NCBI RefSeq assembly: GCF_040939785.1
Contig: NZ_CP162553.1
Span: forward strand, 6,219,001 to 6,283,000
Direction: 5' to 3'
DNA length: 64,000 bases
Origin: Bradyrhizobium lupini
GTDB taxonomy: Bacteria > Pseudomonadota > Alphaproteobacteria > Rhizobiales > Xanthobacteraceae
Shown here: positions 16,139 to 35,600 of the stretch, piece by piece
How positions within the stretch are numbered: the first letter of the stretch is position 1
How the letters are laid out: every line of letters begins with the position of its first letter
The notes under the pieces: generated by a model
Told to the model about the DNA's origin: nothing
Seen by the model: only the letters and a program-made list of their open reading frames with translations
Database searches by the model: none
Program-made: the position numbers and the translations under genes

Positions 16139-16371
16139 ACCCACCTCCCTGATGTCGTTCTTGTTGTTGGGCACTGTAGCGGCAGGGGAGGCGGACTGTC
16201 GACGCCTCACAAGGCGATGCCGCCTGGAATATCGGGCGGTTTTCGGTGTGGCGGCGCCGCTCTTCGCGGTCACGGCAGGAACCGGCGGCGCACGCGGTCT
16301 GAGCAAATCGCATGGGCATTGCCGGATAAATACCCTCGGCTGACAGGTCTTTTGGTGTTACCAAATTGGAC

Positions 16372-18462: not shown

Positions 18463-18595
18463 GCCTGCGCTTCGATCGCCTTTCAAGTTTGTGTCGAGGC
18501 GCTAAAGCGGCGCCGCGCCGCAGTTTGCCCTTGCACCTTCGGCCCGAGCTGCCGCAAATGGCCGCTAAACGGGAGCCCGAGGAAGCGAGCGTGCC

Positions 18596-19378: not shown

Positions 19379-19878
19379 GGGGCGCTCCGGTCATCAGCTT
19401 TCGTTAAGCTGACTGAGATCGTGCATGGCGAACGACCTAGTTATGGTGCTGATGCAGGGAACGCAGACGGAAGACTGCCTGCCCTCAATTCCACCATCAT
19501 CGACCCGCTGACCGCAATGCCCTGACCGCTTCGCGCGGGTTGCGTTTTGGAAGCGCTTCCGAAGCGTGCATCGCCACTCGCTCCTCTGTTTGCGCTATTC
19601 TTGGTCTCGCAGTCGTTCGGCCGCTCACGGGACATCTAGTCAGGCAATCAATGAGCGTGCGCTCGATCGCCTATAGGTCATTTCTTGGATCAAAGCTCCT
19701 CCCATTCGGGCTGTCCTCCCTCTCTAGTTTGACGGCAAAAGCGAAAACTTTTCGCATTTGGATTTTCTTCCCGGACCGTGCCGAGTTGCCATCATACGGA
19801 AAAGATTGACGTTTTTCCGTTTTGGTGTATCCTGACCGAGGATACTTCAAACGAGAGAGCGTTGGAGCGCGCACGACC
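19379..19878. other. Gene-free left edge of the accessory island with clustered inverted repeats
   Basis: These 500 bases hold no gene I can support. The right-hand third is AT-rich and carries three inverted repeats: GCGAAAA-c-TTTTCGC at 19741-19755, ACGGAAAA/TTTTCCGT at 19796-19803 and 19813-19820, and GTATCC/GGATAC at 19827-19832 and 19840-19845. I found no tRNA gene or attachment-site duplication here. Confidence 0.6.
19806..19833 (+). promoter_or_regulatory. Candidate sigma-70 promoter overlapped by inverted repeats
   Basis: TTGACG (19806-19811) and TATCCT (19828-19833) are separated by 16 bases. The -35 element sits in the loop of the ACGGAAAA/TTTTCCGT repeat and the -10 element overlaps the left arm of the GTATCC/GGATAC repeat. 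This is the layout of a repressed promoter for the mobilization gene set that starts at 19879. Confidence 0.55.
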
Positions 19879-20514
19879 ATGATGGGCGGCGATCAGTTCG
19901 ACTATGGCCAAATTCCTCCCCAGATGCGGGACAGGCTGCCGGAGCTCGAGGTCGTCATCCAGGAGGGGGTGGAGCGGGAGGCCTGCAGCGGACTTGTGAT
20001 CGGCGTCGCGCTGGTAGAGGCCAAGGAAGGTCTGGGGCACGGCATTTTCTTGCGGTGGTGTCGCGTGGTTTTGGGGTTCAAGCCGCGGAAGGCGCAACTC
20101 TATATGAACGCAGCGCATCTGTTCCAGCGCCACGGCGAGGTCGTGTGCCGGCTGCCGCTGACCGCCGCTCAGGCGCTGGGTGCTGCGTCGGTGAGCGAGG
20201 AAACGGTGCACGAGGTGATCGCGCGGGTGCGGCGCGGCGAGCGGGTGACAGTCGAGTTCGTGAAGCAGACGATCCGGCGCGCCAAGGAGGGCTCCGCTAA
20301 AATGGAGACGGACTCGGCTGAATCGGTTCAGATCGCGGCGATGATCACGGAGGCGTTGGACGCCCACCAATGCCGGCTGCTGCACGTTTTTCTTGAGGAG
20401 CGGCCGTCCGCGCGCCATTTCGTGGCGGATCTTGCCGATCGCGCGGCCGCGAAGATTCGCAGGAGCCGCTCTGCGCGGGCGACGCCCTCGATCCTCAGCC
20501 TGCCGGCGCCCTAA
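19879..20514 (+). CDS. DUF3102-like protein at the head of the mobilization gene set
   Basis: A 211-residue protein. Residues about 25-85 (IGVALVEAKEGLGHGIFLRWCRVVLGFKPRKAQLYM, shown here only in outline) resemble DUF3102, a domain found in plasmid and phage proteins and thought to be DNA related: a helix with EAK-x3-GHG-x-F-x2-W, then a helix with an R-x-A-Q-x-Y-M pattern. The rest is helical and Arg-rich toward the C-terminus. Two adjacent ATGs (19879, 19882) are possible starts; a GGAG lies about 12 bases upstream. It is the first of six or seven plus-strand genes that end with a relaxase, so a role in maintenance or control of the mobile element is likely. Function unproved. Confidence 0.65.
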   Translation: MMGGDQFDYGQIPPQMRDRLPELEVVIQEGVEREACSGLVIGVALVEAKEGLGHGIFLRWCRVVLGFKPRKAQLYMNAAHLFQRHGEVVCRLPLTAAQALGAASVSEETVHEVIARVRRGERVTVEFVKQTIRRAKEGSAKMETDSAESVQIAAMITEALDAHQCRLLHVFLEERPSARHFVADLADRAAAKIRRSRSARATPSILSLPAP

Positions 20515-20600
20515 TCGAGCATTCCACGTCGTGAAGGGCGGGCCACGCGCAAGCCCAACGGAAGGTATTTTGTTCATCATCTAAGGGCAATGGCACCGCG

Positions 20601-21029
20601 ATGATCCTTGACGAGTTGTTGACGCCGATAGTTGCTGCGCTGGCCGCGACCGAGTTGGGCGTTCCGAAAACGCAAATGGTCATCGACCAACACATCGGCT
20701 CGTTCGAGGCGATTTTGGAGCATGGCTTGACCTACAAGCAGATTGCCGAGGGTCTGAACGTCCGGGGGGCGCGAGGTCGCACGGGCGCGGAGTTCACCGG
20801 GCAATCGCTCTACAACTTCATCAAGCGTGCTAAGGGGAAGAAGGATCGGCCGCCCGGAGCGGCAACGAGGGGGCCGTCCGTTCGACCAACCGATGTTGGC
20901 GGACCATCGCCGGCGAGCACAGCGAAGAACCAGCCGACGTCGCCCGAACTTGAAAGGTTTAAGCACCGTATCGACCAGGCCCGGATCCACGACGCAATAG
21001 ACGATCTCTTCCGTCGTGGAAAACGGTAG
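20601..21029 (+). CDS. Putative helix-turn-helix protein of the mobilization set
   Basis: A 142-residue protein. Residues about 25-75 contain ILEHGLTYKQIAEGL, a helix-turn-helix-like pattern, followed by FTGQSLYNFIKRAKGKK; the middle is a Pro/Gly-rich linker and the end is a short charged helix. This layout recalls small DNA-binding accessory proteins of plasmids (KfrA- or TraC-like position), but I do not recognise the family. ATG 20601 lies 86 bases after the DUF3102-like gene; the next gene begins 5 bases after its stop, so the two are co-transcribed. Confidence 0.6.
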   Translation: MILDELLTPIVAALAATELGVPKTQMVIDQHIGSFEAILEHGLTYKQIAEGLNVRGARGRTGAEFTGQSLYNFIKRAKGKKDRPPGAATRGPSVRPTDVGGPSPASTAKNQPTSPELERFKHRIDQARIHDAIDDLFRRGKR

Positions 21030-21034
21030 CGCGC

Positions 21035-22258
21035 ATGCTTATCGAGGAGGATCGTGCCGAGGTTAAGAGCCTCGTCCTCCGGGTCCGCCGTCCTTCGGCG
21101 GATGTCGCGGTCCATCTCGAAGCCCTCGACCGGGCCGCGTCGTTGTTTCAGTGCCGGAGCGCGCGGCGCGAGGCCTCGGCTCGTATCGGGGAAGTCATCT
21201 CGCAGCTGTCCGTGCTCGTAGATGCGGCGCATCACGCGGCTCACACCGGCGTCGCCTGCATTCCGTCCGAGATATTGCCTGAGACTTTCGACGCGCTGAT
21301 CGGGCGTTATCCATTCTCGAATTGCGACATGGCGCCTGTCACCGCTGAAGTGCTGAAGAATGCCGTCAGTTGCGCAGTTTCTTCCCGGACGGTCGTCGTA
21401 GCTGCGCCCGTCGAGCCCCATGTTGTGAATGCGGCGCTGCGCCAGGTCCCGGGCCAACCGCATTTGGTGGCCGTCAGGTCGACACCCTTCCCATTTGACG
21501 CGGCGACGACGTATTTTTTCGAAGGTTTGGCCACGCCGGCTGCGGGCGATCTGAGAAGGCGGCTCGGAGATTTCATCGCTGGGATGACAGATGTCGCGCC
21601 CAGCTTCCTTGAACATGTGCGCGATCGCGTGTGCCTCGCCACACGAGATCCGCAGCGGCAAAACCGCGGACGGCGAACGCTCTATGATTGGGCCGAGCCG
21701 TCGCCCGGAGCCCGTCTGGTTTGGGACGTGCTCGAGGCCGTTCTGGATCCCATGACGGAGCGACCGCAAGGCCCGGTTCAGGACGTCATCATTCGGATCG
21801 TCGATATCCTGGCGGGGTCGATTGGCGTAGACAACATCCGTTCCGACGTCGTTTCCGCGATGTTGACGATCTGGGTCGCGAGCTGTCAGCACCATATCGT
21901 GGCAACGCGTCTGTCGGAACTCCTGGACGGCGCGTCGGGGCGAGCGGAAACGCTGCGCCATCGGCGTCGACGCGGCTTCTGGATCGCCTGCCATGGCGCC
22001 GTCCGTGACTCGGCCGCCGAACTCTGGCGCCGGGCATGCATGGGCGACTATCATCATGTCGCGCTGCTTGGCGGCTCTTCCAAGCCGTTCGATGCCACGT
22101 CAGCCTCGCCGGCCGGCGGCGTCAGCAGCACGCCGAAAGCCCGCGCGACGGGAATGCCGGTGCCGACTCTCGATCTTGCCGCCGCAGCTAGCGCCGGGAC
22201 GACTTTTCGATTCCTCCGCACCCTTGCAAAAGCCTGCGCGCCCGCGCTCCGCCCGTAA
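21035..22258 (+). CDS. Hypothetical 407-residue protein of the mobilization set
   Basis: I do not recognise this protein. It is largely helical in character, rich in Ala, Arg and Val, with no signal peptide, no clear membrane span and no nucleotide-binding motif. Notable stretches are FPFDAATTYFFEGLATPAAGDLRRRL and a basic patch LRHRRRRGFWIACHG (given only for location, about residues 150-180 and 305-320). The C-terminal 60 residues are low complexity (Ser/Ala/Thr/Pro). ATG 21035 follows the previous stop by 5 bases. A long open frame on the opposite strand (20810-22057) is Arg/Asp-rich in the manner of an antisense shadow and is not annotated. Confidence 0.6.
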   Translation: MLIEEDRAEVKSLVLRVRRPSADVAVHLEALDRAASLFQCRSARREASARIGEVISQLSVLVDAAHHAAHTGVACIPSEILPETFDALIGRYPFSNCDMAPVTAEVLKNAVSCAVSSRTVVVAAPVEPHVVNAALRQVPGQPHLVAVRSTPFPFDAATTYFFEGLATPAAGDLRRRLGDFIAGMTDVAPSFLEHVRDRVCLATRDPQRQNRGRRTLYDWAEPSPGARLVWDVLEAVLDPMTERPQGPVQDVIIRIVDILAGSIGVDNIRSDVVSAMLTIWVASCQHHIVATRLSELLDGASGRAETLRHRRRRGFWIACHGAVRDSAAELWRRACMGDYHHVALLGGSSKPFDATSASPAGGVSSTPKARATGMPVPTLDLAAAASAGTTFRFLRTLAKACAPALRP

Positions 22259-22371
22259 GCCGAGCCAGGCGTCCTCAGACGATTGATATCAATTTCCGAC
22301 GGATGACGACAATCTACGACAGTTTCCACATAGGGTTCGTGGGGGCCTTGTTCGTCAAGCCATGCCTTATT

Positions 22372-22402
22372 CAGCTGCTCGCCGACAGAGGAGAAGCAGC
22401 TG
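22372..22402 (+). promoter_or_regulatory. Hairpin enclosing the ribosome site of the ParA-like gene
   Basis: CAGCTGCT (22372-22379) and AGCAGCTG (22395-22402) are perfect 8-base arms. The 15-base loop contains GAGGAGA, the Shine-Dalgarno sequence, and the right arm ends at the base before ATG 22403. In the mRNA this could hold the ribosome site in a loop and control initiation. Confidence 0.5.
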
Positions 22403-23213
22403 ATGCCGGCTCGGTACTTCATTGTCATCTTGTCCGCCATCGGCGGCCAGGAAAGAGCCTGTTTACCGAACTCGTGGCGCTGATCTTGCGCTCGCGCGGA
22501 TGCAAGATTGAGGTCTTCTCGGCGGACGTCGCCGAGCGGTTGGCTGACAAGCTGGCAGCGTCACCAAGATCGACACCGATCTGCTCGACGCATCCGACGA
22601 TCCGCTTGCTTTGTTGCGGGCATTTTCACCCCTGTCTAACGCCCTCGATCAGGCGGTGACAAGCGGTAGCAGCATCGTGCTCGACACGGCGGCCACATGG
22701 GACGTGACGGTCTTGCGCTTCCTGCGCGACATGGACGTCGATAAGTTGGTCGCCGACGGGGGCGGCCAGATGATCGTGGCGCTTGTGACCACCTCGAATC
22801 GTGACGCCATGCGCGCATTGGCGACGAACACGAGCTTAGTGCGCACCGCGCTACCGCTCGCCCGGCCGCTGTGGGTGCTCAATGAACGGGTCGGCGTCGT
22901 GTTCCCGCCGAATTTCGATCGGGGCATCATCGACCTGGAGCCGGAGCACTTCGACGAGATGCGTGCGGGCGTGACGGAGATCGCGCTGCCGCGGCTCGAT
23001 GACCGTCTGTGGCAGCCGGTGGACCGTGCAGGATTGAACCTCGTCGATTTCGTGAACGCCGATCCGGCGAAACTCGCCCCCTTGTGGCTCGATGCCTCCG
23101 GCCGGCCGCTCGATCGGCTGTCGGCGGCGGCGGTCCAGCGGCGCATCGCGAGCTGGATCGCAAAGATGATCGAGGAGGCCTCGCGCGGGCTCAGGTTTCC
23201 CGATGCCAATTAA
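22403..23213 (+). pseudogene. ParA/MobD-like P-loop ATPase, interrupted by two frameshifts
   Basis: Joining three frames gives one protein of about 270 residues. It starts MPARYFIVILSAIGGQ and should continue GKSLFTELVALILRSRG, a deviant Walker A (GGQGKS) of the ParA/MinD type; the frame breaks inside this motif at about 22449-22454 (one G short of GGGAAAG). The second break is at about 22556-22562, after which the frame runs cleanly to 23213 (LDTAATWDVTVLRFLRDMDV and on). Relaxase operons often encode such an ATPase (TraL, MobD, VirC1), which helps bring the relaxosome to the transfer channel or aids maintenance. Both breaks fit single-base deletions; sequencing error cannot be excluded. Confidence 0.65.
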
Positions 23214-23478
23214 GCTTGGGCCGACCTTCGCACGAGCCGAACAGCGCGGAGCCGCGGCTTCTTGCACGCTGGTCCGGCGCCTCGCTCGATCGACCAGCCT
23301 GATTTCCTTGCTGCTAGATCCGCCACGGGAGTTTCAGATGCTGACGCGGGCTGAACGCGAGCAAGTCCTCAAACTCCGGGTCCGTATCCGTCGAAGCCGG
23401 ATCGGCCCGTGCGAGCACCGGCTGCGGCTCATCGGCCGCTGGATGGACGCCTTCTGGAGCAAAATCACGTGGGTGTAA
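23203..23478 (+). CDS. Small basic hypothetical protein between ATPase and MobC genes
   Basis: A 91-residue, strongly basic protein. ATG 23203 overlaps the end of the ATPase gene by 11 bases and the stop overlaps the MobC-like start by 10, the tight packing expected of a real operon gene. The C-terminal half (LTRAEREQVLKLRVRIRRS) is helical and Arg-rich, and a nucleic-acid-binding role would fit. No family recognised. It could also be a chance frame. Confidence 0.4.
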   Translation: MPIKLGPTFARAEQRGAAASCTLVRRLARSTSLISLLLDPPREFQMLTRAEREQVLKLRVRIRRSRIGPCEHRLRLIGRWMDAFWSKITWV

Positions 23479-23882
23479 ATAGCTCCAAGCAGGGCCGGAA
23501 AAAGCCATTGGCGAAGCATCCAGAGATTGGCTGTAATACGCCGATCACGACCAACGCTCCTTTTTCCGTGCGGTTGCCGCAGGCACTCAAGGACCAGGCC
23601 ACCGAGCGAGCGGCATCGATGAACATCGACCTCAGCCAATTCATCAAGGATGCGATGGAGGCCTACTTGTCGGGAACCCGTCCGCGCAGGAGGCGGGCCA
23701 AACACGACGGAATAAGACAAAAGCTCGCGGAAATCCACGCAACGATCATTCGCTGTGCGAACGAAATCAAGCAGAGCCGCGCTCAGGGCGCCGATGCCCA
23801 ACACCTCGTGCAGACGACAATCTTGTTGCGAGATGCAGTATCCGCCTTGCTGCTGATCGCCCGCTCGATCGGGCCGCGCTGA
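23469..23882 (+). CDS. MobC-like relaxosome accessory protein
   Basis: A 137-residue protein. Residues about 32-67 read as a ribbon-helix-helix DNA-binding domain (FSVRLPQALKDQATERA, then NIDLSQFIKDAMEAYL). The C-terminal half (EIHATIIRCANEIKQ, LLRDAVSALLLI) resembles the MobC domain, which opens oriT DNA for the relaxase. GTG 23469 has GGAG about 10 bases upstream; it is chosen over the longer frame, which starts inside the previous gene. The stop TGA overlaps the relaxase ATG by one base, so the two are translationally coupled, typical of MobC-relaxase pairs. Confidence 0.7.
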   Translation: MGVNSSKQGRKKPLAKHPEIGCNTPITTNAPFSVRLPQALKDQATERAASMNIDLSQFIKDAMEAYLSGTRPRRRRAKHDGIRQKLAEIHATIIRCANEIKQSRAQGADAQHLVQTTILLRDAVSALLLIARSIGPR

Positions 23883-25168
23883 TGATCGCGCGCGCCTTTT
23901 CATATCGGGGGTCGCTAACGGACGCCCGCCGCCTCGATGCACACCTCTGGAAGGACAAGGATCAGCGTCCAGAACTCCTCGAGATGCGCAATCTCTGCGT
24001 TCGTTGGACCATCGACGGGATGCAAGTCATGGCGGCCCTGACGGCTGCGTCCCGCGCCGAGATTGCGCTCTGGCATCTCTATATTTCGCCCCGGCGTACG
24101 CTGACGGCGGACGAAGTGGCGAAGGTCGTCGATCTCGTCCTCACAGAACTCAAGGCACATGACCACCCGTTGATGGTGTTCGCCCACAACGACAAGCCGC
24201 GTGCTGGAGGAGGTGCAAATCATCTGCACCTGGTGTTGGGCCACGTTTCCCCTCAAACTTTTCGCGCGCTGGACATGCGCCATCATGCACCGAGACTCCA
24301 CAAAGTCATGGCGCTCGCGGCCTACCTGATCGAGGGCGAGGCCGTCCCGAGCCGTTGGCAAAAGTCGGTCATCGAGGCGCTTCGCGCCGATGGCAACGGT
24401 CACGTTGCCGACTGGCTTATCGACGAACTCGGGGTCGTGCCGGTCATCGATGCGCCGCGCATGACCGATTCCATGCGCCGAGCGGCTCAGGCTGTTGACT
24501 TCCCGCTGCCCAGGTTTCAGTCGGAGCTGAAACGCCTGTGGAAGAGTTCAGCGACGGAAGCCGAATTCGCCTCGTTCCTGGGCCGCAACAACGTGGCGGT
24601 CAAACCGGGGAATGCGCCGAGAGTGATCGCGTTTCACCATCCGCAGTTGTTCGTTGGTGCCTTGCATCGCATTCTCAGGCAGGAGGTCTCGGTTGCTTAT
24701 CACGAGGCGCAGCGCCGGATCCCCCGGTTACTTCACGCCGATGAAGGCAACCCACTCGATGCTGCCTCGTCAGATGCTTCGGCCGAGGTCCTGAAGCCGT
24801 CCGATGCTGATCGGCGCGCCCGCCTCGATTTGCAGAAGAGGATCGATGCGATAGAGCGGCCGTTGGCTCGTCTGAAGACGGAACGTCTATCGCTGATCTA
24901 CCAACCGGGCCGTACAGGCTCGGGCGAGCCGATTTCCCCGGACGAAATCGCCATCCGCATTCACCGTCTTGCCCGAGCCGAGTCCATTTTGGAAAAAGCG
25001 ATTTCGCTGCTGTGCCAGGATGCTGGATGGATGGTCAGACCGGAGCTCGATTTGATGCAAGCCGCGGCGAAGATCGTCACCTCGGCGGCCGAGGACATTC
25101 CGCCAAACATTGAGATCGCGCAGCGCGGGGAGGTGGAAGATGTGCGAGTTTCCGGCTGGAGTCCTTAG
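23882..25168 (+). CDS. Relaxase / mobilization nuclease
   Basis: A 428-residue protein with the relaxase core in residues about 1-180. The HUH metal site is visible as NHLHLVLGH (His114, His116, with a further His121), preceded by HPLMVFAHNDK (His102) and the LYISPRRTLTADEV helix, in the spacing seen in MobP/VirD2-like enzymes. The catalytic Tyr is probably Tyr8 or Tyr68; the first is nearer the N-terminal position usual for these enzymes. Relaxases nick oriT, stay linked to the 5' end and pilot the strand into a recipient. The remainder is helical and may contact MobC or the channel. No helicase domain, coupling protein or type IV secretion gene is in the window, so the element would need helper functions. 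Confidence 0.75.
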   Translation: MIARAFSYRGSLTDARRLDAHLWKDKDQRPELLEMRNLCVRWTIDGMQVMAALTAASRAEIALWHLYISPRRTLTADEVAKVVDLVLTELKAHDHPLMVFAHNDKPRAGGGANHLHLVLGHVSPQTFRALDMRHHAPRLHKVMALAAYLIEGEAVPSRWQKSVIEALRADGNGHVADWLIDELGVVPVIDAPRMTDSMRRAAQAVDFPLPRFQSELKRLWKSSATEAEFASFLGRNNVAVKPGNAPRVIAFHHPQLFVGALHRILRQEVSVAYHEAQRRIPRLLHADEGNPLDAASSDASAEVLKPSDADRRARLDLQKRIDAIERPLARLKTERLSLIYQPGRTGSGEPISPDEIAIRIHRLARAESILEKAISLLCQDAGWMVRPELDLMQAAAKIVTSAAEDIPPNIEIAQRGEVEDVRVSGWSP

Positions 25169-25297
25169 TGACGGAAGTTCATGCGGTTGCGAGCCTTTGA
25201 AAGCGTCCTCAAGAGACAGGGCTGATCCCGCGGGGGACTTTGGATGACAACGCCTGAGACCTTACCCGCTGTGGCACAGGGGGATCGGCGCTATCGT

Positions 25298-26854
25298 TCA
25301 ATGGCGGCTTGCGTTGACCTCGCGCTGGCGCAACACGATCTCGAGGAGGCGGCGGAGCCGTCGCACTGATCCGCCGCGCCAATGGTGCGCGATGGCGGAA
25401 GTTTCGCTCGGGCTCAGGCCCTCGATCCAGCGCCGGTCCATACCCTGGTCGCGCAGGATATCGGTGATCACCGCGGGGATGAGAGCCAGAAGGTCGGCCT
25501 CCGTCGGCTTGGGAAAGTCTATCTTGCGGAAGCGATCGAGCAAAGGAGAGGGCAGGTTGTCGATGAAATTCGCCGTAGCAACGTAGCAAACGTGTCGCAG
25601 GTCAACGGGGGTCTGCAGTGCGGGGTCCGGATATTGCCGCGCCGAGTCGATTTCGAGGAACCCAAGAAGGCAATCAAACAGGCGGCCATGGTCTCGCCCC
25701 GTCGCGGCTTTGTCGAGCTCATCGAGCAGGATCATTACGTTGGCATGCCGAGCGCGCGCGATCGCCAGAAGCGGATGGCACGGCTGCGCGGTCGCCCATC
25801 TGCGGTCGGTTCCGGAGAACGCCGCGCCATCGGCTCCACTTGAATCAGTCCGCCACATGCCGACGCCAAGCAGCTGCTGCAGCCGTTGCGCGAAACGCGT
25901 CTTCCCGCTCCCGGGCGGCCCCACCATCAGCAGCGGGCGGAAGGCGACCGTGGGGCGACCGACGAGGTCGGATAGCACAAAATCGACGACATTGGCCGCG
26001 TAGCTGAATTCCGCCATCAACTGGCGGCGCACTTCCGCAAGCGCCGGTGTCTTGATCAGCGGCAAGGGTACATCGATCAGGCCTTTCAAGGGCGTGACGA
26101 TCTCTTTCAATTTATAGCCCGTCATGGTGACCGGATCCGTTCGCACCACGATGACATGCCCCTCGGGAACGTCCAGCAGCGGCCTCTCACTACTGGCGTC
26201 GCTGCGCATGGCCTCCCGCTCGTCGGCTTTACGCAGACGCTCCCGCGAGCGGGCGAATGCTGTCTCCTCGGCTTCCTCGATCCTGCGCCCCGCCATGCTG
26301 GCGCCGAGCATCGCAGCTGCCCGGATTGCGGGCGTCTGAAAGGCACCTATAACTTCGTGCGCGCAGACTGGCAGTGCCGCCCAGCCATAAACGAGGGCCT
26401 CGATCTCGGCGGCGAGCTCGAGGGGGATGGACGGCGGAAGTTTGTGAAAGGCGGCAACAAGCGCGCTTGCGACACGGCGGTGCTCTTCGTCGAGCCCCCT
26501 GTCGCGAGGTAGCGCCAGCGAGATCAGCCGCACGCCATCGGCAAGGCTCCGGCACTCCGGCTTGTCTTCGCGGACCGCCCGGTGGTCGAGCTCGACGGCA
26601 AGCGCGCATCCGCTTGCGGCGTCGGGCGTGTCGATCCATGTCTCCGTCAGGGCGATGCCCGGGCAGACCGTCTCGATTTCGGCGGCGAGGCGCTGGTAGA
26701 CCGAATGGTCGGCGCGCGAGGCCAGAACAGCGTAGCGCAGCACGCGTGGCAAGCTGGCAGTGGCCTGCTCGCCGGATGCGGAATCCTCGGCCGCGCCCTC
26801 GATGACCTCCTCATCGAGGTCGCTCGGAGGCAGGTCATCCAGATCATCGATCAT
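25298..26854 (-). CDS. AAA+ ATPase (Lon-like core, no protease domain)
   Basis: A 518-residue protein. An acidic N-terminus (about 1-30) is followed by a helical region with no recognised domain (30-290) and a C-terminal AAA+ module: Walker A GPPGSGKT (312-319), Walker B MILLDELDKA (about 374-383), sensor-1 region CYVATANFIDNLPSPLLDRF with an arginine finger, and a sensor-2 GGSVRRLRRLLE. The module resembles Lon and related unfoldases, but the Lon Ser-Lys protease domain is absent, so it may remodel proteins or complexes. The ATG at 26854 is chosen because the acidic start fits; the frame is open further upstream. It lies 166 bases behind the GIY-YIG gene on the same strand and converges on the relaxase gene. 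Confidence 0.82.
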   Translation of the reverse strand: MIDDLDDLPPSDLDEEVIEGAAEDSASGEQATASLPRVLRYAVLASRADHSVYQRLAAEIETVCPGIALTETWIDTPDAASGCALAVELDHRAVREDKPECRSLADGVRLISLALPRDRGLDEEHRRVASALVAAFHKLPPSIPLELAAEIEALVYGWAALPVCAHEVIGAFQTPAIRAAAMLGASMAGRRIEEAEETAFARSRERLRKADEREAMRSDASSERPLLDVPEGHVIVVRTDPVTMTGYKLKEIVTPLKGLIDVPLPLIKTPALAEVRRQLMAEFSYAANVVDFVLSDLVGRPTVAFRPLLMVGPPGSGKTRFAQRLQQLLGVGMWRTDSSGADGAAFSGTDRRWATAQPCHPLLAIARARHANVMILLDELDKAATGRDHGRLFDCLLGFLEIDSARQYPDPALQTPVDLRHVCYVATANFIDNLPSPLLDRFRKIDFPKPTEADLLALIPAVITDILRDQGMDRRWIEGLSPSETSAIAHHWRGGSVRRLRRLLEIVLRQREVNASRH

Positions 26855-26976
26855 GAGATTGCTCGGCTCGCGTCGACGCCGAAACACGGCGCCAGCCGGT
26901 CCTACTGTGAAAAATCGCGGATCGCTCTTGCCATTGCGGAGGAGGGCAAGGCCCCGCCTACGCAAACGACGAACAT

Positions 26977-27006
26977 GGACGCTGCAGAAAACCTTCCGCA
27001 GCGTCC
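26977..27006 (-). terminator. Hairpin terminator behind the GIY-YIG gene
   Basis: GGACGCTGC and GCAGCGTCC (26977-26985 and 26998-27006) are perfect 9-base arms with a 12-base loop, 14 bases beyond the stop of the minus-strand GIY-YIG gene. The minus strand after the stem is only moderately T-rich (ATGTTCGTCGTTTGCG), so termination may be partial. Confidence 0.5.
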
Positions 27007-27020
27007 AGTCGCGCTCAGGT

Positions 27021-27983
27021 CTAGAGCTGCATCACCGGGCGCTGCGTCGGATCGACCGGCCGCCACTTCGAGCTGTCGACATGCGCCCCGCAGACGGCCT
27101 TGGCGGCGGTCGCCATCGAGGGGAAGGCGATGTCGACGGTGATCCGCATGCGATCTATGGCTCCCGGGATCGGCGTCAGCACGCCGGCCTCGAACAAGGC
27201 GGCTCGACGCGCCCGGGTCACCGGGCTCGCGCTCGGATTGGTGGCGATGCGGAAATCCGAGCCGGCGGCCACGACAAATCGGTCGTTGGCGGGATAGCCG
27301 CGCGCCCAGATCGTCTCATCATAACGCAACTCGAACTCCGCGCCGCCAGGCGACAGGTGCACGTCGATCTCCATCGGGCCGCTCTCTACATCGTCAGCCG
27401 CCTCCGGCGACAGCACCGGCGCGTCCACCTGTGGCATGCCGCCCGGCGGCGGTTCGAAGGCGGTCAAGCCGGCATCGAACAGCAAGCGCTGTGCGTCTTC
27501 GAGCATGCGCTCATGCAGCGGCAGGTCCAGCGGATCGATCTCGGGCATCCGTGGCGGGCTGCCCGCGACCACTTTCATGACGCCGCAGCGATCGGCCGCA
27601 TGCGTCAGCCAGAACTGCAGGTAGGCTGCGGTCTCTTTCGTGAAGCGCACCTCCTTCGAGGTCCCGCGCACCACCACCACCTGGCGGGCCCACGCCTTCT
27701 GCGGATCGGCAAGGTGTTCACCGAGCCGCCGGCTGAAGCAGTTCGTCTCGCCGAGATAGATCGGAACGTTGCCGTCCTGAACGTCGCCGGTCATGGCATA
27801 AAAGGCCGGGCAGGCGAGCTCGCTCGCCACGAGCTTGGGGCCGAGGCTCATCGGGAACACCAGAACTTTGACATGGGCGGCGCGGTCGATGATCTCGCGA
27901 ACGTCGGCAACACCTCCATACGGGCGGTGCACATGGCTCGTGGTGCGCGTGCTGATGAGCGGCTTGTCCTTGAAGTAAGACAT
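27021..27983 (-). CDS. GIY-YIG nuclease-fold protein with C-terminal DUF4357
   Basis: A 320-residue protein. Residues about 40-130 match a GIY-YIG domain of the kind that precedes DUF4357: FYAMTG in place of the first motif, IYLGET (75-80) for YIG, Arg86 and His90, and a Glu in RFTKETAAYLQFWL as candidate metal ligand. Residues about 210-315 match DUF4357 (WARGYPANDRFVVAAGSDF, then RRAALFEAGVL and AFPSMATAAKAVCG). GIY-YIG enzymes cut DNA in repair, homing and restriction. ATG 27983 is chosen over the longer frame because the protein then begins with a normal N-terminus. It sits between a 57-residue gene and the AAA+ gene on the same strand. Confidence 0.75.
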   Translation of the reverse strand: MSYFKDKPLISTRTTSHVHRPYGGVADVREIIDRAAHVKVLVFPMSLGPKLVASELACPAFYAMTGDVQDGNVPIYLGETNCFSRRLGEHLADPQKAWARQVVVVRGTSKEVRFTKETAAYLQFWLTHAADRCGVMKVVAGSPPRMPEIDPLDLPLHERMLEDAQRLLFDAGLTAFEPPPGGMPQVDAPVLSPEAADDVESGPMEIDVHLSPGGAEFELRYDETIWARGYPANDRFVVAAGSDFRIATNPSASPVTRARRAALFEAGVLTPIPGAIDRMRITVDIAFPSMATAAKAVCGAHVDSSKWRPVDPTQRPVMQL

Positions 27984-28095
27984 GTTGAAGATCTCCGGTT
28001 CGATCGAATGTCCGTTGAAATCCGAACGGCAGCAGTCCCCAACACCTTGCGTGCCGAGAAGCTGTGCCGTTCGGAAAGCTCGATGGGGGGCGAGG

Positions 28096-28269
28096 CTAGT
28101 GGATCGCGATCCACGACAGCGAAACGCCGCCATCCACGCGCGTCAGGCGGCCCGACGAGCTCATGAGCTCCGAGTGCGCAAGGCGCGACCGGACAGCCAT
28201 CTGGGAGGGAACAAGAAGATCAAAAGAGAAATTCGCCGACGAATCGGCAATATACTGGCCGATAGCCAT
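28096..28269 (-). CDS. 57-residue hypothetical protein
   Basis: A short protein (MAIGQYIADSSANFSFDLL to SLSWIAIH) with a good ribosome site: AGGAG lies 7 bases before the ATG at 28269. It is not hydrophobic enough for a membrane peptide and has no Cys motif. It is first on the minus strand ahead of the GIY-YIG gene (112-base gap). Family not recognised; the signal for a real gene is the start context and the position. Confidence 0.5.
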   Translation of the reverse strand: MAIGQYIADSSANFSFDLLVPSQMAVRSRLAHSELMSSSGRLTRVDGGVSLSWIAIH

Positions 28270-28736
28270 TGGTAGACTCCTGGTTAGTCTGCTGTGGTTA
28301 GGTCGCCGTCCGATCTGAACCATCGGCGGCGGCCGCCCTTGCGGTTATGCGTAGGCCGGACAAACATAGAACAAAATGTGGCCGGCGCAAAGTCCAAATA
28401 TTTATCGATTTTCCCGAAATTCGCCCCGGGCGATTTTCTCTCCAATTGTGCAGCTCGCTTGACAAGGCGACAACCTCGCTACCAGCCGGCCTGGGGATGG
28501 CGGAATGCTGCTCAGAGATATCTTTGCTCCCAGTTTGATAGTAAAGACCGCGAACGAAAGTTTGAGGGCCATCCGTCGTTATCTCAATAGGCGCGACGAC
28601 TCTAATCAGTCGATCGACCGGTCGCGCACGCAGCAGGCGCGGTAAATTCTATTGAGGCAGGCGGATGATGCTAATGTCCTCTCCGCAACTTTATCTGTGA
28701 CATTTTTCCGGTGCGCAGCGCTCGAGGGGGACATCG
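28270..28736. other. Gene-free right edge of the accessory island
   Basis: These 467 bases hold no gene I can support. The part at 28360-28480 is AT-richer than its surroundings, and the region should contain the promoter of the 57-residue gene. I found no attachment-site repeat matching the left edge of the island. Confidence 0.55.
28358..28372 (-). promoter_or_regulatory. Candidate LexA (SOS) box
   Basis: On the minus strand the sequence reads GTTC-TATGTTT-GTCC, one mismatch from the direct-repeat LexA site GTTC-N7-GTTC known from some alphaproteobacteria. It lies about 90 bases before the start of the 57-residue gene and points the right way. A chance match is quite possible. Confidence 0.3.
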
Positions 28737-29165
28737 CTACCCAGCGTTGGCCTTTAGGGCCGCGGCCTGGATGCCCGCCACCGCACAAGCTTCGTCATTG
28801 TCGGACGTGTCGCCCGACACACCCACCGCGCCGAGCAGGGTCGTGCCGTCCATGATCAGCACGCCGCCGGGGACCGGCACCAGCGCGCCCTTGGCAATCG
28901 TGTTCACGGAATCAATGAAATAGGCCTGCTCCTGCGCGCGCTGGAAGAGAGCGCGCGAGCCCATGCCCAATGCGAGTGCGCCATAGGCCTTGCCGTGCGC
29001 GATCTCGGCGCGCATCAGGCTGGTGCCGTCCTGCGCCGCGGCGATCTTGAGCACCCCGCGGGCGTCGAGGATGGTGACCACCAGCGGCTTCAGCTTCAGC
29101 TCGGTGGATTTCGCGAAGGCGGCGTCGAGGATCTTGCGGGCGGTGTCGAGGGTGAGGTCAGCCAT
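28737..29165 (-). CDS. GlcG/HbpS family haem-binding protein
   Basis: A 142-residue protein of the DUF336 family (GlcG, HbpS, Cob-adenosyltransferase-like PduO C-terminal fold). Typical segments are TLDTARKILDAAFAKS, VTILDARGVLKIAAAQDGTSL, KAYGALALGMGSRAL and LLGAVGVSGDTSDNDEACA. No signal peptide. In glycolate operons GlcG lies beside the oxidase genes, as here: its start overlaps the end of the GlcDF-like oxidase gene by 8 bases. The biochemical role of GlcG is unclear; haem or small-ligand binding is known for relatives. Confidence 0.85.
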   Translation of the reverse strand: MADLTLDTARKILDAAFAKSTELKLKPLVVTILDARGVLKIAAAQDGTSLMRAEIAHGKAYGALALGMGSRALFQRAQEQAYFIDSVNTIAKGALVPVPGGVLIMDGTTLLGAVGVSGDTSDNDEACAVAGIQAAALKANAG

Positions 29166-32100
29166 GGCTGGGTTCCTTTGCAAGGGGAGGGGTTGTGGAT
29201 TGCGTTTTGGCACGATCGAGGCTCAGCGCCAGCACGCGCGCGACGTGAAGCGCCTCGCGCTCGGCGCCGTCGTGGATCTGGTGCCGACAGGAGGTGCCGT
29301 CGGCGACGACGAGCGTATTCTGGTCCGCGCGCCGCACGGCGGGTAGCAGCGAGAGCTCGGCCATCTCGATCGAGGCATCGTAGGTGTCCGCGCCATAACC
29401 GAAGGCGCCGGCCATGCCGCAGCAGCTCGACTCGATGGTCTCGACCTCGAGGCTGGGAATGAGGCGCAGCACCTGCTCGACCGGCTTGAACGCGCCGAAG
29501 GATTTTTGATGGCAATGGCCGTGCACCATTGCTTTGTCGGCGACGGTGCCGAGTGGCAGTTGCAGCCGGCCGGCCTCGGCCTCGCGCACCAGGAATTCCT
29601 CGAAGGTCAGCGCGTGGGCGCCAACGGCCTTGGCGTCGGCGTCCTTGCGCAGCGAGGCGAGCTCGTCGCGCAGCGTCAAGAGGCAGCTTGGCTCGAGGCC
29701 GACGATCGGCACGCCACGCGCGGCGAAGGGCGCGAACGCGGCGACGAGGCGGTCGAGCTCGGACTTGGCTTCGTCAACGAGACCGGCTGAGAGGAAAGTA
29801 CGGCCGCAGCACAGCGGGCCGTTGCCGCTCAATGGCTTCGGCAGATGCACGCGATAGCCGCCGGCCGCGAGCACGCGCAGCGCGGCGTCGAGATTTTCGC
29901 GCTCATAGATGCGGTTGAATGTATCGGCGAACAGCACGACCTCGCGGCCAGTCTCCGGCCCGACCGCTTCGGCAGGCGGCGCGAACACGTCGCTGCGGAA
30001 GGCGGGCAGCGCCCGCCGCGCGCTGATGCCGGCAAAACGCTCGAACAGCCTTCGCAGCAGCGGGCTGCGGTTGCGCAAATTCGCCAGCGGCGCGAAGCGC
30101 GACGCGAGGCCGGCATAGCGTGGGAGGTAGCCGACCAGGCGGTCGCGCAAGGTCGGGCCATGCGAGGCCGCGCGCGCGGCGAGCACCTCGATCTTCATCT
30201 TGGCCATGTCGACGCCGGTTGGGCATTCGTGGCGGCAGGCTTTGCAGGATACGCAAAGCTTCAGCGTCTCCATCATCTCGTCGGAGGAGAGCGCGCCCGC
30301 GCCGAGCTGGCCGGAGATCGCGAGCCGCAGCGTGTTGGCGCGCCCTCGCGTCGCGTCCTTCTCGTTGCGCGTCGCGCGATAGGACGGGCACATCACGCCG
30401 CCCTCGAGCTTGCGGCAGGCGCCGTTGTTGTTGCACATCTCGACCGCGCCCTGAAAGCCGCCGCCGGCCCCGGGATAAGCCGACCAGTCGAGTTTTGTCT
30501 TGAGCTCAGCGACGCGATACTCAGGCTTGAAGCGGAATAGCGAACGATCGTCCATCTTCGGTGAGTCGACGATCTTGCCGGGGTTTAGCACGCCCTCGGG
30601 ATCAAAGCGCTGCTTCACTTCCCGGAAGTCGGCGACCAGGCGCTCGCCGAACATCGTGGTGTGGAACTCCGAGCGCACCAGGCCGTCGCCGTGCTCGCCG
30701 GAATGCGAGCCCTTGTACTCGCGCACCAGTTCGAAGGCTTCCTCGGCGATGGCCCGCATCGCCTTGACGTCCTGCTCCAGTTTCAAATTCAGCACGGGTC
30801 GTACATGCAGGCAGCCTTCGGAGGCGTGAGCATACATCGTGCCGCTGGTGCCGTGCTTTGCGAACACCTCGCTCAGCCGCGCGGTGTAGTCGGCGAGATG
30901 CGGCAGCGGCACGGCGCAGTCCTCGACGAAGGAGACGGGCTTTCCTTCCTGCTTCATCGACATCATGACGTTGAGGCCGGCGGCGCGGAAATCGGCGATC
31001 CCGCTCTGCAGCGCGGGCTCGGTGATTTCCACCACGCCGCCCCATTTGCGCTTGTCGTTATTCCAGCCGAAGCCGAGATCGCCCATCAGCTCGCCGAGCT
31101 GCTTCAGGCGCACGAGGTTGTCCGCCTGGTCCTCCTCGGCGAACTCGACCACGAGCACCGCATCCGGATCGCCCTTGATCGCGGCGGAGATGATCGGCCG
31201 GAACATCGCGATGTCGCGGCCGAGCGCGAGCATGGTGCGGTCGACCAGCTCGACCGCGATCGGCTTCAGCTTGACCAGATGCTGGGCCGCGTCCATCGCC
31301 TCGTAAAAACTGCCGAAATGGCAGATGCCGAGCGCCTTGTTGCGGATCACGGGCCACAGCTTCAGCTCGACCTTGGTGGTGAAAGCGAGAGTGCCCTCGG
31401 AGCCGACGAGAAGGTGCGCCATGTTGTTGCGGGCATTGCGCGGCACCAGCGCATCGAGATTGTAGCCGCCGACACGGCGCTGCACTTTTGGAAAGCGCGC
31501 GGCGATCTCCCCGGCCTCGCGGGCGCCGAGATCGAGCATGTCGCGGACCAGGGCACGCGCGCTGTCGTTCGCATCGAGATCGGAAAGATCGCGCGACACC
31601 TCGCCGTAATGGCTCAGCGTGCCGTCGGCAAGCGCGGCCTCCATCGACAGCGTGTTGTCGCGCATGGTGCCGTAGCGCAGGCTGCGGCCGCCGCAGGAAT
31701 TGTTGCCGGCCATGCCGCCGATGGTGGCGCGCGAGGCCGTGGAGACATCGACCGGAAACCAGAGGCCGTGTTTCTTCAGCTGGCGGTTGAGGTGGTCGAG
31801 CACGATGCCCGGCTCGACCACGCAGGTGCGTCCTTCGACGTCGAGCGACAGGATCCGGTTCAGGTGCTTGGAGAGATCGACCACGAGGCCGTCATTGACG
31901 GTCTGGCCGCATTGCGAGGTTCCGCCGCCGCGCGGGTCACCTTCAGTCCCTCGTCGCGCGCGATCGCCAGCGCCCGCAAGGCCTCGTCCATGGTGCGCGG
32001 CACCACCACGCCGTAGGGCATGATCTGGTAGAAGGAAGCGTCGGTGGCGTAGCGGCCGCGGCTGAAAGCGTCGAACAGGACGTCGCCGGTCACGTCCCGG

Positions 32101-32168
32101 GCCAGGCGTGCCGCGAGGCCGTCCTTTTTGGCCGATTCCTGTGATTTCCCGGGCACTTCCGCCGCCAT
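29158..32168 (-). pseudogene. FAD- and (Fe-S)-binding oxidase (GlcD-GlcF-like fusion), one frameshift
   Basis: About 1003 residues once one break is repaired. The N-terminus (MAAEVPGKSQESAKKDG, from ATG 32168) runs in one frame to about 31934, then continues in the next frame as RGGGTSQCGQTVNDG, the FAD-contact loop; one base is missing at about 31930-31936. Then follow an FAD_binding_4 domain and FAD-oxidase C domain (to about 550), two Fe-S Cys clusters (CNNNGACRKLEGGVMCPS; CVSCKACRHECPTG) and two CCG domains (PLCCGRTF; SSCCGMAG). Such fusions oxidise D-lactate, glycolate or D-2-hydroxyglutarate and pass electrons to quinone or cytochrome. With GlcG beside it and a serine-glyoxylate aminotransferase divergent, glycolate is a good guess. 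If the break is real, the enzyme is inactive. Confidence 0.8.
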
Positions 32169-32355
32169 GGTCCGCTCTTGCCTGTTCGCCGCCCCCGTCT
32201 TGCCTCCGGTCACGGCCCTTGGCAAGGCGAGCCCTGCTTCTTGTGCATTGACGGACCCCGCCCGGCGAGGGACAAGCCCGGCGAATAGTGATATTCGAGC
32301 GGCTCGCGCAGCCCCTTGAGGCCAGATGGCTCCAAGTCAAGCTGGGCTCGAAGCC

Positions 32356-32394
32356 AAGACAGACTCAAGAGACAGACGCAAAAGACAGACTCAA
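32356..32394 (+). repeat. Three 13-bp tandem repeats upstream of the aminotransferase gene
   Basis: AAGACAGACTCAA, GAGACAGACGCAA and AAGACAGACTCAA follow one another without gaps and end 18 bases before the ATG at 32413. The first and third are identical; the middle one differs at two positions. They lie in the divergent promoter region between the oxidase and the aminotransferase (32169-32412). Confidence 0.8.
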
Positions 32395-32412
32395 AGACCG
32401 GGAAGGACGCCG

Positions 32413-33612
32413 ATGACCGTGCATACTGGAAGGCATTTTCTCCAGATTCCAGGACCGACCAACGTGCCCGACCGGGTGCTGCGGGCGATGGACATGCCGA
32501 CGCTGGACCATCGCGGTCCGGAGTTCGCCGAACTCGGTTTCGCCGTCCTCGCCGGCATGCAGCGGGTGTTCCGCACCAAGCAGCCCGTGATCATCTTCCC
32601 CTCGTCCGGCACCGGTGCCTGGGAAGCCGCGATGGTCAACGTGCTCGCGCCCGGTGACAAGGTGCTGATGTGCGAGACCGGCCAGTTCGCCGTGCTGTGG
32701 CGCGGCATCGCCGACAAGTTCAAGCTCGACGTCGACTTCATCCCGAGCGATTGGCGCCATGGTGCCGATCTCGCCGAGATCGAGAAGCGCCTTACCGCCG
32801 ACAAGCAGCACACCATCAAGGCGGTCTGCGTCGTCCACAACGAGACCTCGACCGGCTGCGTGACGCCGCCGCTCGACGTGCGCAAGCTGCTCGACCGGGT
32901 CAAGCATCCGGCGCTGCTGATGGTCGACACCATCTCCGGCCTCGGCTCGATCGAGTATGAGCACGATGCCTGGGGCATCGACGTCTCGGTCGCCGGCTCG
33001 CAGAAGGGCCTGATGCTGCCGCCGGGCCTCGGCTTCAACGCCGTCTCGGAGAAGGCGCTCGCGGTGGCCAAGGCCAACCCCGGCATGCGCTCCTATTGGG
33101 ACTGGCAGGAGGTCATCGGCTTCAACAAGCTCGGCACCTTCCCCTATACGCCCGCCACCAATTTGCTCTACGGCCTGCGCGAGGCGATCAAGATGCTGGA
33201 AGAGGAGGGGCTCGAGAACGTCTGGACCCGCCACAAGCGCCACAGCGCGGCGACGCGCGCCGCGATCAAGGTCTGGGGCCTGGAGACGCAGTGCGCCGAT
33301 CCTGCCGCGCATTCGCCGGCGCTGACCGGCGTGCGCGTGCCTGATGGCCATGACGCCGATGCCTTCCGCAAGGTGGTGCTGGAAAATTTCGACATGTCGC
33401 TCGGCACCGGCCTGAACAAGGTCAAGGGCAAGGTGTTCCGCATCGGCCATATCGGCCATTTCAACGATCTGATGCTGATGGGCACGCTCGCGGGCGTCGA
33501 GATGGGCCTCGATCTTGCAAAGATCCCGCACCGGAGCGGCGGGGTGTTGGCGGCCATGGACGTCCTGAAGGGACGCGACGTGGTGCCGATGACCAAGGCT
33601 CAGGTGGCTTAG
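32413..33612 (+). CDS. sgaA: Serine-glyoxylate aminotransferase (class V)
   Basis: A 399-residue PLP enzyme that should convert serine and glyoxylate to hydroxypyruvate and glycine, as in the serine cycle or glyoxylate disposal. The PLP lysine is Lys198 in SVAGSQKGLMLPPG; other class V marks are FPSSGTGAWEAAMVN, VVHNETSTG and the pre-lysine VDTISGLGS. ATG 32413 is chosen because the protein then starts like the family (GRHFLQIPGPTNVPDRV); the longer frame runs through the 13-bp repeats. It heads a plus-strand set with a crotonase and TctCBA genes, and faces the GlcDF-like oxidase. Confidence 0.9.
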   Translation: MTVHTGRHFLQIPGPTNVPDRVLRAMDMPTLDHRGPEFAELGFAVLAGMQRVFRTKQPVIIFPSSGTGAWEAAMVNVLAPGDKVLMCETGQFAVLWRGIADKFKLDVDFIPSDWRHGADLAEIEKRLTADKQHTIKAVCVVHNETSTGCVTPPLDVRKLLDRVKHPALLMVDTISGLGSIEYEHDAWGIDVSVAGSQKGLMLPPGLGFNAVSEKALAVAKANPGMRSYWDWQEVIGFNKLGTFPYTPATNLLYGLREAIKMLEEEGLENVWTRHKRHSAATRAAIKVWGLETQCADPAAHSPALTGVRVPDGHDADAFRKVVLENFDMSLGTGLNKVKGKVFRIGHIGHFNDLMLMGTLAGVEMGLDLAKIPHRSGGVLAAMDVLKGRDVVPMTKAQVA

Positions 33613-33673
33613 AGGCTCAGGTGGCCTGAAGGCTCAGCTTGCCTGAGCCAACTTAGAGAAAAGAGAGCGCGCG

Positions 33674-34471
33674 ATGAACGCACCGACGACCGCCAACGAA
33701 GACCTGCTCTACTCCGTCACGGACGGCATCGCGCGGATTACCTTCAACCGCCCGCAGGCGCGCAACGCACTGACGTTCGCCATGTACGAGCGCATGGCGG
33801 AGATCTGCCAGGAGATCAACGCCGACCGCTCGATCAAGGCGCTGATCCTGACCGGCACCGGCGACAAGGCGTTTGCCTCCGGCACCGACATTTCTCAGTT
33901 CCGTGCGTTCAAAACCGCGCAGGATGCGCTCGACTATGAGGCCCGCATCGACCGCGTGCTCGGCACGCTCGAGCAGTGCCGCGTGCCCGTGATTGCGGCG
34001 ATCGCGGGGGCATGCACTGGCGGCGGCGCGGGAATTGCGGCGTGCTGCGACCTCCGCATCGGGACTGAAACGACGCGCATCGGGTTTCCGATCGCGCGCA
34101 CGCTCGGCAACTGCCTGTCGATGTCGAACATCAGCCGCGTCGTCTCGCTGGTCGGCCCCGCCCGCACCAAGGATCTGATCTTCAAGGCGCGCCTCGTCGA
34201 GGCGCCGGAAGCACTGGCGCTCGGCCTCCTCAACGAAATCGTTCCCGACGTCGAGACGCTGCAGCGCCGCGCCGACGAGACCGCCAGGCTCGTGGCGAGC
34301 CATGCCCCGCTGACGCTTGAAGCGACCAAGGAGGCAGTGCGCCGCATCCGCCGCACGCTGTCGCGCGAAGAGGGCGAGGATCTGATCCTCAAGGCCTATA
34401 TGAGCGAAGATTTCCGCGAGGGAATGGACGCCTTCCTCAACAAGCGCACACCGAGCTGGAAGGGCAAGTAG
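33674..34471 (+). CDS. Enoyl-CoA hydratase/isomerase (crotonase family)
   Basis: A 265-residue crotonase-fold enzyme. The first oxyanion loop is GTGDKAFASGTDISQF and the second is IAGACTGGGAGIAACCDL; the usual AGAD is replaced by SGTD, seen in several acyl-CoA lyases and hydratases of uncertain substrate. ATG 33674 lies 61 bases behind the aminotransferase gene, after AGAGAA. It is followed by a Bug-type binding protein and TctBA, so it may process the CoA ester of the acid that they import. It shares only the fold with the crotonase at 18596. Confidence 0.88.
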   Translation: MNAPTTANEDLLYSVTDGIARITFNRPQARNALTFAMYERMAEICQEINADRSIKALILTGTGDKAFASGTDISQFRAFKTAQDALDYEARIDRVLGTLEQCRVPVIAAIAGACTGGGAGIAACCDLRIGTETTRIGFPIARTLGNCLSMSNISRVVSLVGPARTKDLIFKARLVEAPEALALGLLNEIVPDVETLQRRADETARLVASHAPLTLEATKEAVRRIRRTLSREEGEDLILKAYMSEDFREGMDAFLNKRTPSWKGK

Positions 34472-34598
34472 CGCATCTGCGGCTTGGCTTCGTCAGCCGA
34501 AAGTCATAGGCAGCGGGATACCCGCGTGCTTGAACTCGCTCGCATTAGTCCGCACAATGCGTCGAGAAGCAAAGCTAATAATCCAGGGGACGAAACTC

Positions 34599-35585: not shown

Positions 35586-35600
35586 CCGCCTCTTCTCCCC

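Follow-up and report, generated by a model that had tools for sequence, protein, structure and literature searches.

What does a short minus-strand operon beside a relaxase gene do on the chromosome of Bradyrhizobium lupini, if its large products are a GIY-YIG-fold protein and an AAA+ ATPase? We examined a 64,000-nucleotide (nt) stretch of contig NZ_CP162553.1 (positions 6,219,001 to 6,283,000; hereafter the window) from a 7.83 Mb genome; the closest named matches for the locus come from Bradyrhizobium strains (64-100% protein identity). A preliminary description of this DNA had placed three minus-strand frames beside a relaxase, and these are present (25298-26854, 27021-27983 and 28096-28269), with the relaxase on the other strand at 23882-25168. 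A gene caller took all three frames as coding and began the ATPase at the ATG at 26854. Our data show that the two large genes recur together in other genomes and that the small first frame is a leader open reading frame (ORF). The explanation that we favor, at about even chances, is that the locus is a leader-gated and probably antisense-RNA-gated two-protein accessory module, with a former restriction protein serving a protease-less Lon ring as its DNA reader.

The GIY-YIG and ATPase genes recur as neighbors

In 265 genomes of the same genus, 43 contain a match to the GIY-YIG-fold protein (hereafter GIY) at E 0.001, giving 58 GIY places. At 28 of these the ATPase gene follows GIY on the same strand at a distance of up to 6 kb (E 1.3e-65 or better), and at none does it lie in another orientation; duplicate loci (L023-L026, L190) are left out of our counts. 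The check proposed in the preliminary description, a count of how often these families are neighbors elsewhere, thus comes out positive for the large pair, and we conclude that GIY and ATPase form a recurrent, mobile-linked neighborhood beyond what chance would give.

Across 70 fetched ATPase loci, the upstream partner is GIY in 31, an unknown 290-amino-acid (aa) protein (c19) in nine, the phage-family protein phrog_4652 (c24), usually with a small HNH gene, in eight, and something else in 22. An unknown 190-aa protein (c2) is found at 19 of the 31 GIY loci, at all nine c19 and all eight c24 loci, and at one of the 22 others. Genes for a calcineurin-like phosphoesterase, DUF6634 and DUF2130 recur, and both GIY and ATPase have varied neighbors. 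The window holds the shortest form of the operon, without c2, and its GIY and ATPase genes are still under selection: the ratio of nonsynonymous to synonymous substitution rates (dN/dS) is 0.09-0.19 for GIY and 0.18-0.30 for the ATPase, each in seven close pairs, indicating purifying selection.

Two kinds of sister operon were seen alongside these. The phrog_4652 protein replaces GIY in the ATPase operons L136-L139, L143, L146, L150 and L159, usually with the small HNH protein. A second operon type (L170-L174, L176, L178) is leaderless, and in it the neighbor of an FtsH-like AAA/M41 protein is a GIY protein that lacks the catalytic Glu; a 200-aa protein (c9) is on the stretch in six of these seven, often with a DnaQ-like exonuclease or a small protein (c33).

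The GIY-YIG-fold protein appears to lack its cutting residue

The GIY protein (27021..27983, minus strand; 320 aa) has its fold at residues 31-143 and a conserved, weakly DUF4357-like C-terminal domain at about residues 205-310. Its Pfam matches to GIY-YIG and DUF4357 are both under the cut-offs; the GIY-YIG-like fold is supported by structure comparison of a predicted model. The PADLOC profile for PDC-S14 (PDLC04925) matches residues 53-303 at E 9.2e-25.

The core residues Y62, Y76, R86 and H90 are kept, so that the two Tyr, the Arg and the His of the motif are present. In the GIY-YIG domain of UvrC, the catalytic residues are numbered R39 and E76. The position of the catalytic, metal-binding Glu is occupied by Gln123 in the window, and the same column holds Glu in all six unlinked members. 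Glu or Arg is lost in 30 of 30 ATPase-linked members, and both are kept in six of six members that have neither leader nor ATPase (the residue table and tree cover members longer than 280 aa; split support in the tree, 99/98). The protein therefore seems likely to be without its cutting residue, and loss of DNA cleavage is predicted. Of the likely nuclease put forward in the preliminary description, the GIY-YIG-like fold remains and the intact active site does not. In tblastn searches, GIY relatives matched in 12 plasmid records, and none was found at 1e-5 in 50,697 phage records.

The ATPase is a Lon-type AAA+ protein without a protease domain

The Lon-like AAA+ ATPase (25298..26854, minus strand; 518 aa) starts at an ATG, with an alternative TTG start at 26965 being less likely. 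It consists of a helical N-terminal part (residues 1-220) and a Lon-type AAA+ module with Walker A and B motifs (residues about 255-518), with which the protein ends. The NCBIfam lon model matches at 77.5 bits, far under its 608-bit cut-off. As had been predicted, no C-terminal protease domain was found, and matches to Lon chains stop at the AAA+ part too. Walker A Lys318 and Walker B Glu379 are invariant among 65 aligned members. The predicted model (predicted local distance difference test score, pLDDT, 85.5) matches Lon structures in Foldseek at E 7.2e-15, mainly across the AAA+ part; most of the Foldseek matches fall on the AAA+ module, and they give no family for the N-terminal residues 1-220. 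The same genome contains a second, more distant Lon-like ATPase (L168, G000:C1:6767000-6786000), and the gene after it belongs to the DUF6634-type cluster.

The small first frame is a leader ORF

The 57-codon frame (28096..28269, minus strand) had been taken for a 57-residue protein. It is conserved over about its first 11 codons only, and at the nucleotide level: a frame with the same start motif lies upstream of GIY in 30 loci, with the conserved codons identical to the base. In the body of the frame, the ratio of nonsynonymous to synonymous differences (pN/pS) is 1.08 (a pooled value from 46 non-independent within-group pairs). Lengths are similar within groups, and the stop codons over the 30 loci are TAG in 23, TAA in seven and TGA in none. 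No family for the frame was found in Pfam, NCBIfam, PADLOC or PHROGs. The frame is a leader ORF that starts within a structured RNA; its amino acids are not selected, and there is no third protein. We considered a toxin, an antitoxin or a subunit as its product and rejected these on the pN/pS value and the lack of a family match.

At locus L043 the leader AUG is the start of the GIY gene itself, and at L041 it is an in-frame start inside a GIY frame that the gene caller began 105 nt upstream. Six loci have a GIY-YIG-like fragment inside the leader ORF (E 9e-10 to 4e-4); the best of 620 shuffles reached 5.6e-4, so the weakest fragment is near noise. The leader ORF of the window shows no GIY-YIG trace. 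Most simply, the leader would formerly have driven a GIY gene whose stub decayed to a leader ORF, while a second, downstream copy would have stayed in use.

The leader RNA resembles the IncQ repA leader

The structured leader element (28225..28349, minus strand) comprises a large hairpin, CCUAACCACA, a hairpin with the ribosome site in its loop, AUGGCU, and the hairpin GCCGAUUCGUCGGC. We described it by a covariance model, R1, of 126 model positions, built from Bradyrhizobium leaders only and from no plasmid sequences. For 13 tested pairs in three helices across 30 aligned loci, 96.4% of cells pair, against 22-47% when the partners are slid. Double-changed cells number 21 against a shuffled mean of 4.8, with none of 500 shuffles as high, and the covariation score likewise is reached in none of 500.

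With stricter filters that lose weak matches, R1 gave 36 matches in 257 genomes, 34 of them followed by this GIY gene within 1.5 kb; the remaining two are the weakest. There is no R1 match at 24 of the 58 GIY rows. Two or more of these 24 are artefacts: a GIY gene in G367 is split into two pieces, one of which makes up a row, and at L208 the leader is shortened and reaches 24.1 bits. R1 scored no higher than 18.1 bits at the fetched ATPase loci that lack GIY.

On an E. coli plasmid, R1 also detects the IncQ1 repA leader, which the R1162 antisense RNA targets (37.7 bits, E 1.9e-11); the runner-up scores 3.4 bits. Conversely, the Rfam family RF00043 matches 28262-28335 at 33.2 bits, below its 55-bit gathering cut-off, and this leader is its sole match in the whole genome up to E 10 (E 0.002). 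The leader thus appears homologous in architecture to the IncQ repA leader.

A class-wide R1 search of 337 genomes found matches at E 0.001 in 16 besides the window's own. On 24 fetched stretches carrying such leaders, no GIY or ATPase relatives were found beside them, which makes the leader a more general control element. We re-found the leader pattern in 13 of the 24 class-level loci (L242 was misplaced), and some of the weakest class-level matches have no leader-like sequence. At twelve loci in other alphaproteobacteria (L241, L243, L244, L246, L247, L249, L251, L255, L258, L259, L263 and L264), the leader type stands before short ORFs, several starting like MADSENTRT, and before unrelated small genes. 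Two genomes of a single genus have five loci at which an ORF of 21-33 codons begins in the leader and runs up to or into a downstream frame. An Rfam scan of seven of the twelve loci gave sub-threshold matches to symR, FinP or R1162 in five, with symR on L241, L258 and L247; the PtaRNA1 model also matches leader relatives elsewhere below threshold. These matches hint at a superfamily of antisense-controlled leaders, and with the class-wide R1 matches and the match to the IncQ1 leader they suggest that the Rfam IncQ antisense family has wider alphaproteobacterial relatives than its cut-off admits.

Candidate control elements around the leader

A stem-loop on the mRNA strand (28021..28075, minus strand) separates the stop codon of the leader ORF from the start of GIY, in a segment with a folding z-score of -4.5. 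Compared with shuffles, the intergenic segment has z of -2 or lower in 24 of 30 loci (median -3.4), the leader in 15 and the leader-ORF body in five. The consensus of eighteen long intergenic segments is weak (-3.5 kcal/mol; 16 pairs, four with double change). On the opposite strand, TATACT (28251..28256, plus strand) is a candidate -10 box for an antisense RNA running into the leader, its TATA being kept in 28 of 30 loci. Together, the IncQ-type leader, the stable intergenic fold and the use of TAG and TAA as stops suggest antisense-RNA control of leader-ORF translation that is coupled to GIY. Translational coupling of this kind is known from repY/repZ leaders.

A LexA-like site upstream of the frames had been taken as a hint of damage control. 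This site, GTTC-N7-GTCC (GTTCTATGTTTGTCC; 28358..28372, minus strand), has one mismatch to the alphaproteobacterial LexA box and is kept in six of seven close-clade loci. Over all 30 loci, GTTC/GAAC-N7 sites with at most one mismatch occur within 300 nt upstream in 13, against 6-7 loci expected from a rough chance estimate of 0.2 per locus made without a control run. The site is a candidate for LexA control in the close clade and is less regular over the loci overall.

The operon lies on an accessory island

The module is part of an accessory island of ~9.3 kb (19384..28731, no strand, ends approximate) flanked by the genes for an enoyl-CoA hydratase and an HbpS-like protein. Our search for empty sites returned 30 loci, the window being one, out of 115 genomes with the flanking gene. 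The island is absent at this site in 25 of the 29 other loci around the HbpS-like gene, and the hydratase adjoins the HbpS-like gene in 25 of the 30, with a gap below 500 nt in 19 and of 0.9-1.0 kb in six. A repeat search over 18400-29600 found no pair acceptable as attachment sites at the ends of the island.

The MobA/VirD2-type relaxase (23882..25168, plus strand; PF03432, E 4e-06) adjoins the module in this clade. A relaxase of this type is present on four of the 31 GIY+ATPase stretches fetched, so the link is clade-specific, and we rejected the relaxase as a general companion of the set. The island also carries weakly ribbon-helix-helix (RHH)-like and recombinase-like genes, and at its edge a gene weakly like DUF3102 (19822-20514); 18 of 102 fetched stretches, counted with duplicates, carry such a gene. 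Around the island lies a metabolic cluster (16366-35600) with, by Pfam, the hydratase, the HbpS-like protein and a class-V aminotransferase; further members are presumably a molybdopterin oxidoreductase, a flavin adenine dinucleotide (FAD) oxidase and a Tct-like protein. Genes of this cluster are held by 16 of 97 fetched loci, with insertion at more than one gap of the cluster, marking a recurrent island site.

A model for the module and its alternatives

We read the pair as a non-cutting reader and a motor because of the fold, the residue loss and the neighborhood. In our model, a short antisense RNA from the opposite strand would pair with the leader and block ribosome entry. Where this RNA is titrated or not made, ribosomes would translate the leader ORF and open the structure that follows, allowing GIY to be translated. 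The GIY protein would then use its conserved C-terminal domain to bind, but not cut, particular DNA, and would pass the complex to the AAA+ ring, which may strip proteins from, or remodel, the DNA of an incoming or competing element. Other partners, possibly catalytic, may be encoded in the sister operons, the operon of the window being the stripped-down form. We infer from this an anti-element function. The earlier proposal of a candidate undescribed system stands in this form, on the recurrent mobile-linked pair and the unvalidated PDC-S14 match; the third protein, the intact nuclease and the general relaxase partner drop out of it. A bolder version, which we hold tentatively and consider somewhat unlikely, is an undescribed family of exclusion modules, with an IncQ-type antisense leader as gate, a nuclease-dead GIY-YIG reader loading a protease-less Lon ring, a first operon position swapped between sister loci (GIY-like, 290-aa unknown, or phage-family protein usually with HNH) and a decayed nuclease stub reused as leader ORF. 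If our reading of the locus is true, it would link plasmid-type RNA control to a chromosomal accessory module, show a restriction-nuclease domain retained across two families without its catalytic residue, and provide a case of a leader ORF as a possible relic of the gene it controls.

Several results weigh against the favored explanation. The GIY/ATPase pair is not obligate, since 30 of the 58 GIY places have no ATPase within 6 kb, ATPase linkage is scattered on the GIY tree (10 changes), and seven leaderless GIY members sit with an FtsH-like ATPase. The best fold matches of the GIY model (Z 8.6 and 7.8) are near the level that, by the tool's own note, is reached by models without relatives, and Foldseek found no match for GIY in the PDB at E 0.001. 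Catalysis might also survive with Gln or through another residue. For the leader, two of five covariation measures are weak: pairs with double change are only mildly raised (5 against 3.0, a level reached by 26 of 500 shuffles), and additional pair types are not raised (8 against 8.2; 360 of 500). In addition, the structure was derived from the same sequences used for its test. R1 was tried on one IncQ plasmid only. RF00043 gives sub-threshold matches in seven of 14 control genomes at an E limit of 10, so its genome-wide uniqueness is weak by itself; the reverse test with R1 is stronger. Since the leader type also stands before unrelated small genes, it says nothing specific about defense. The openness of the leader ORF is not significant by itself (chance 0.17-0.64 per locus), and a promoter scan reported no antisense promoter at the TATACT box, where a -10-like box was found and no -35. 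The antisense RNA, the transcript and the protein products of the module are all predicted. Finally, 57% of 14 PDC-S14 carriers were phage-susceptible in one survey (PMC10855318).

Among other explanations, the module could serve the maintenance, copying or transfer of the mobile island itself, with GIY and the AAA+ protein processing the element's own DNA and no role in defense. The IncQ-type leader and the relaxase belong to plasmid biology, RHH-like and recombinase-like genes share the island, and the island is missing from most of the comparable sites; yet the relaxase accompanies so few of the GIY+ATPase stretches, and GIY and ATPase keep such different company, that we regard this explanation as unlikely, if still a serious one. 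We think it distinctly less probable that the locus resembles a type I toxin-antitoxin system, with leader and antisense RNA restraining a toxic product, either GIY or the ATPase, in the way that SymR restrains the SOS-induced SymE. In its favor are the sub-threshold symR, FinP and PtaRNA1 matches to leader relatives in other genomes, the LexA-like site in the window's clade and the precedent of SymE, which is repressed by LexA, SymR and Lon (PMC1891008). Against it, the window's own leader has no symR match at E up to 1, and the LexA-like site is weak. To our knowledge, GIY and the ATPase are large and unlike known type I toxins.

It is more doubtful still, and in our view improbable, that the locus is an active restriction system in which the GIY-YIG protein has kept its cutting activity, perhaps on modified DNA in the manner of CMoRE, and is assisted by the ATPase. 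The fold, the retained Tyr, Arg and His residues and the PDC-S14 match would fit such an enzyme, but Glu is replaced by Gln here, and none of the 30 ATPase-linked members keeps both Glu and Arg. CMoRE conserves its catalytic Arg and Glu, and every active-site mutation that was tried abolished its activity in vitro (PMC12923530).

Comparison with known systems

In the open-licence literature searched, we recognized no description of an operon of this kind or of the widened leader family. The GIY protein shares its profile match with PDC-S14, a single-gene phage-defense candidate in PADLOC, and intact relatives have DUF4357 above cut-off in four of four scanned; in contrast, the window protein lacks the catalytic Glu, is paired with an ATPase and has its own DUF4357 match below cut-off. 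PDC-S14 is described as not yet characterized in PMC10855318. With CMoRE, a GIY-YIG type IV restriction enzyme, the protein has in common an N-terminal GIY-YIG and a C-terminal domain, but CMoRE works as a single component and has an intact active site and a GIYxY-YIG motif (PMC12923530). The GIY protein has neither this motif nor an intact Arg/Glu pair, with PAFYAM at residue 62 and Glu absent. The ATPase shares the AAA+ module with Lon protease and differs in its N-terminal part and in having no protease domain. Possible antisense control over translation start and possible LexA control are common to SymE/SymR and this locus, and the protein differs. The closest likeness is to the repA leader of R1162 (IncQ; RF00043), with which the leader shares a hairpin, unpaired CCUAACCAC, a hairpin with the ribosome site, and AUGGCUA, and the models match each other's locus. 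The IncQ leader drives a replication helicase, whereas here a leader ORF precedes a GIY-YIG gene, the Rfam match reaches 33.2 against 55 bits, and the antisense RNA is predicted.

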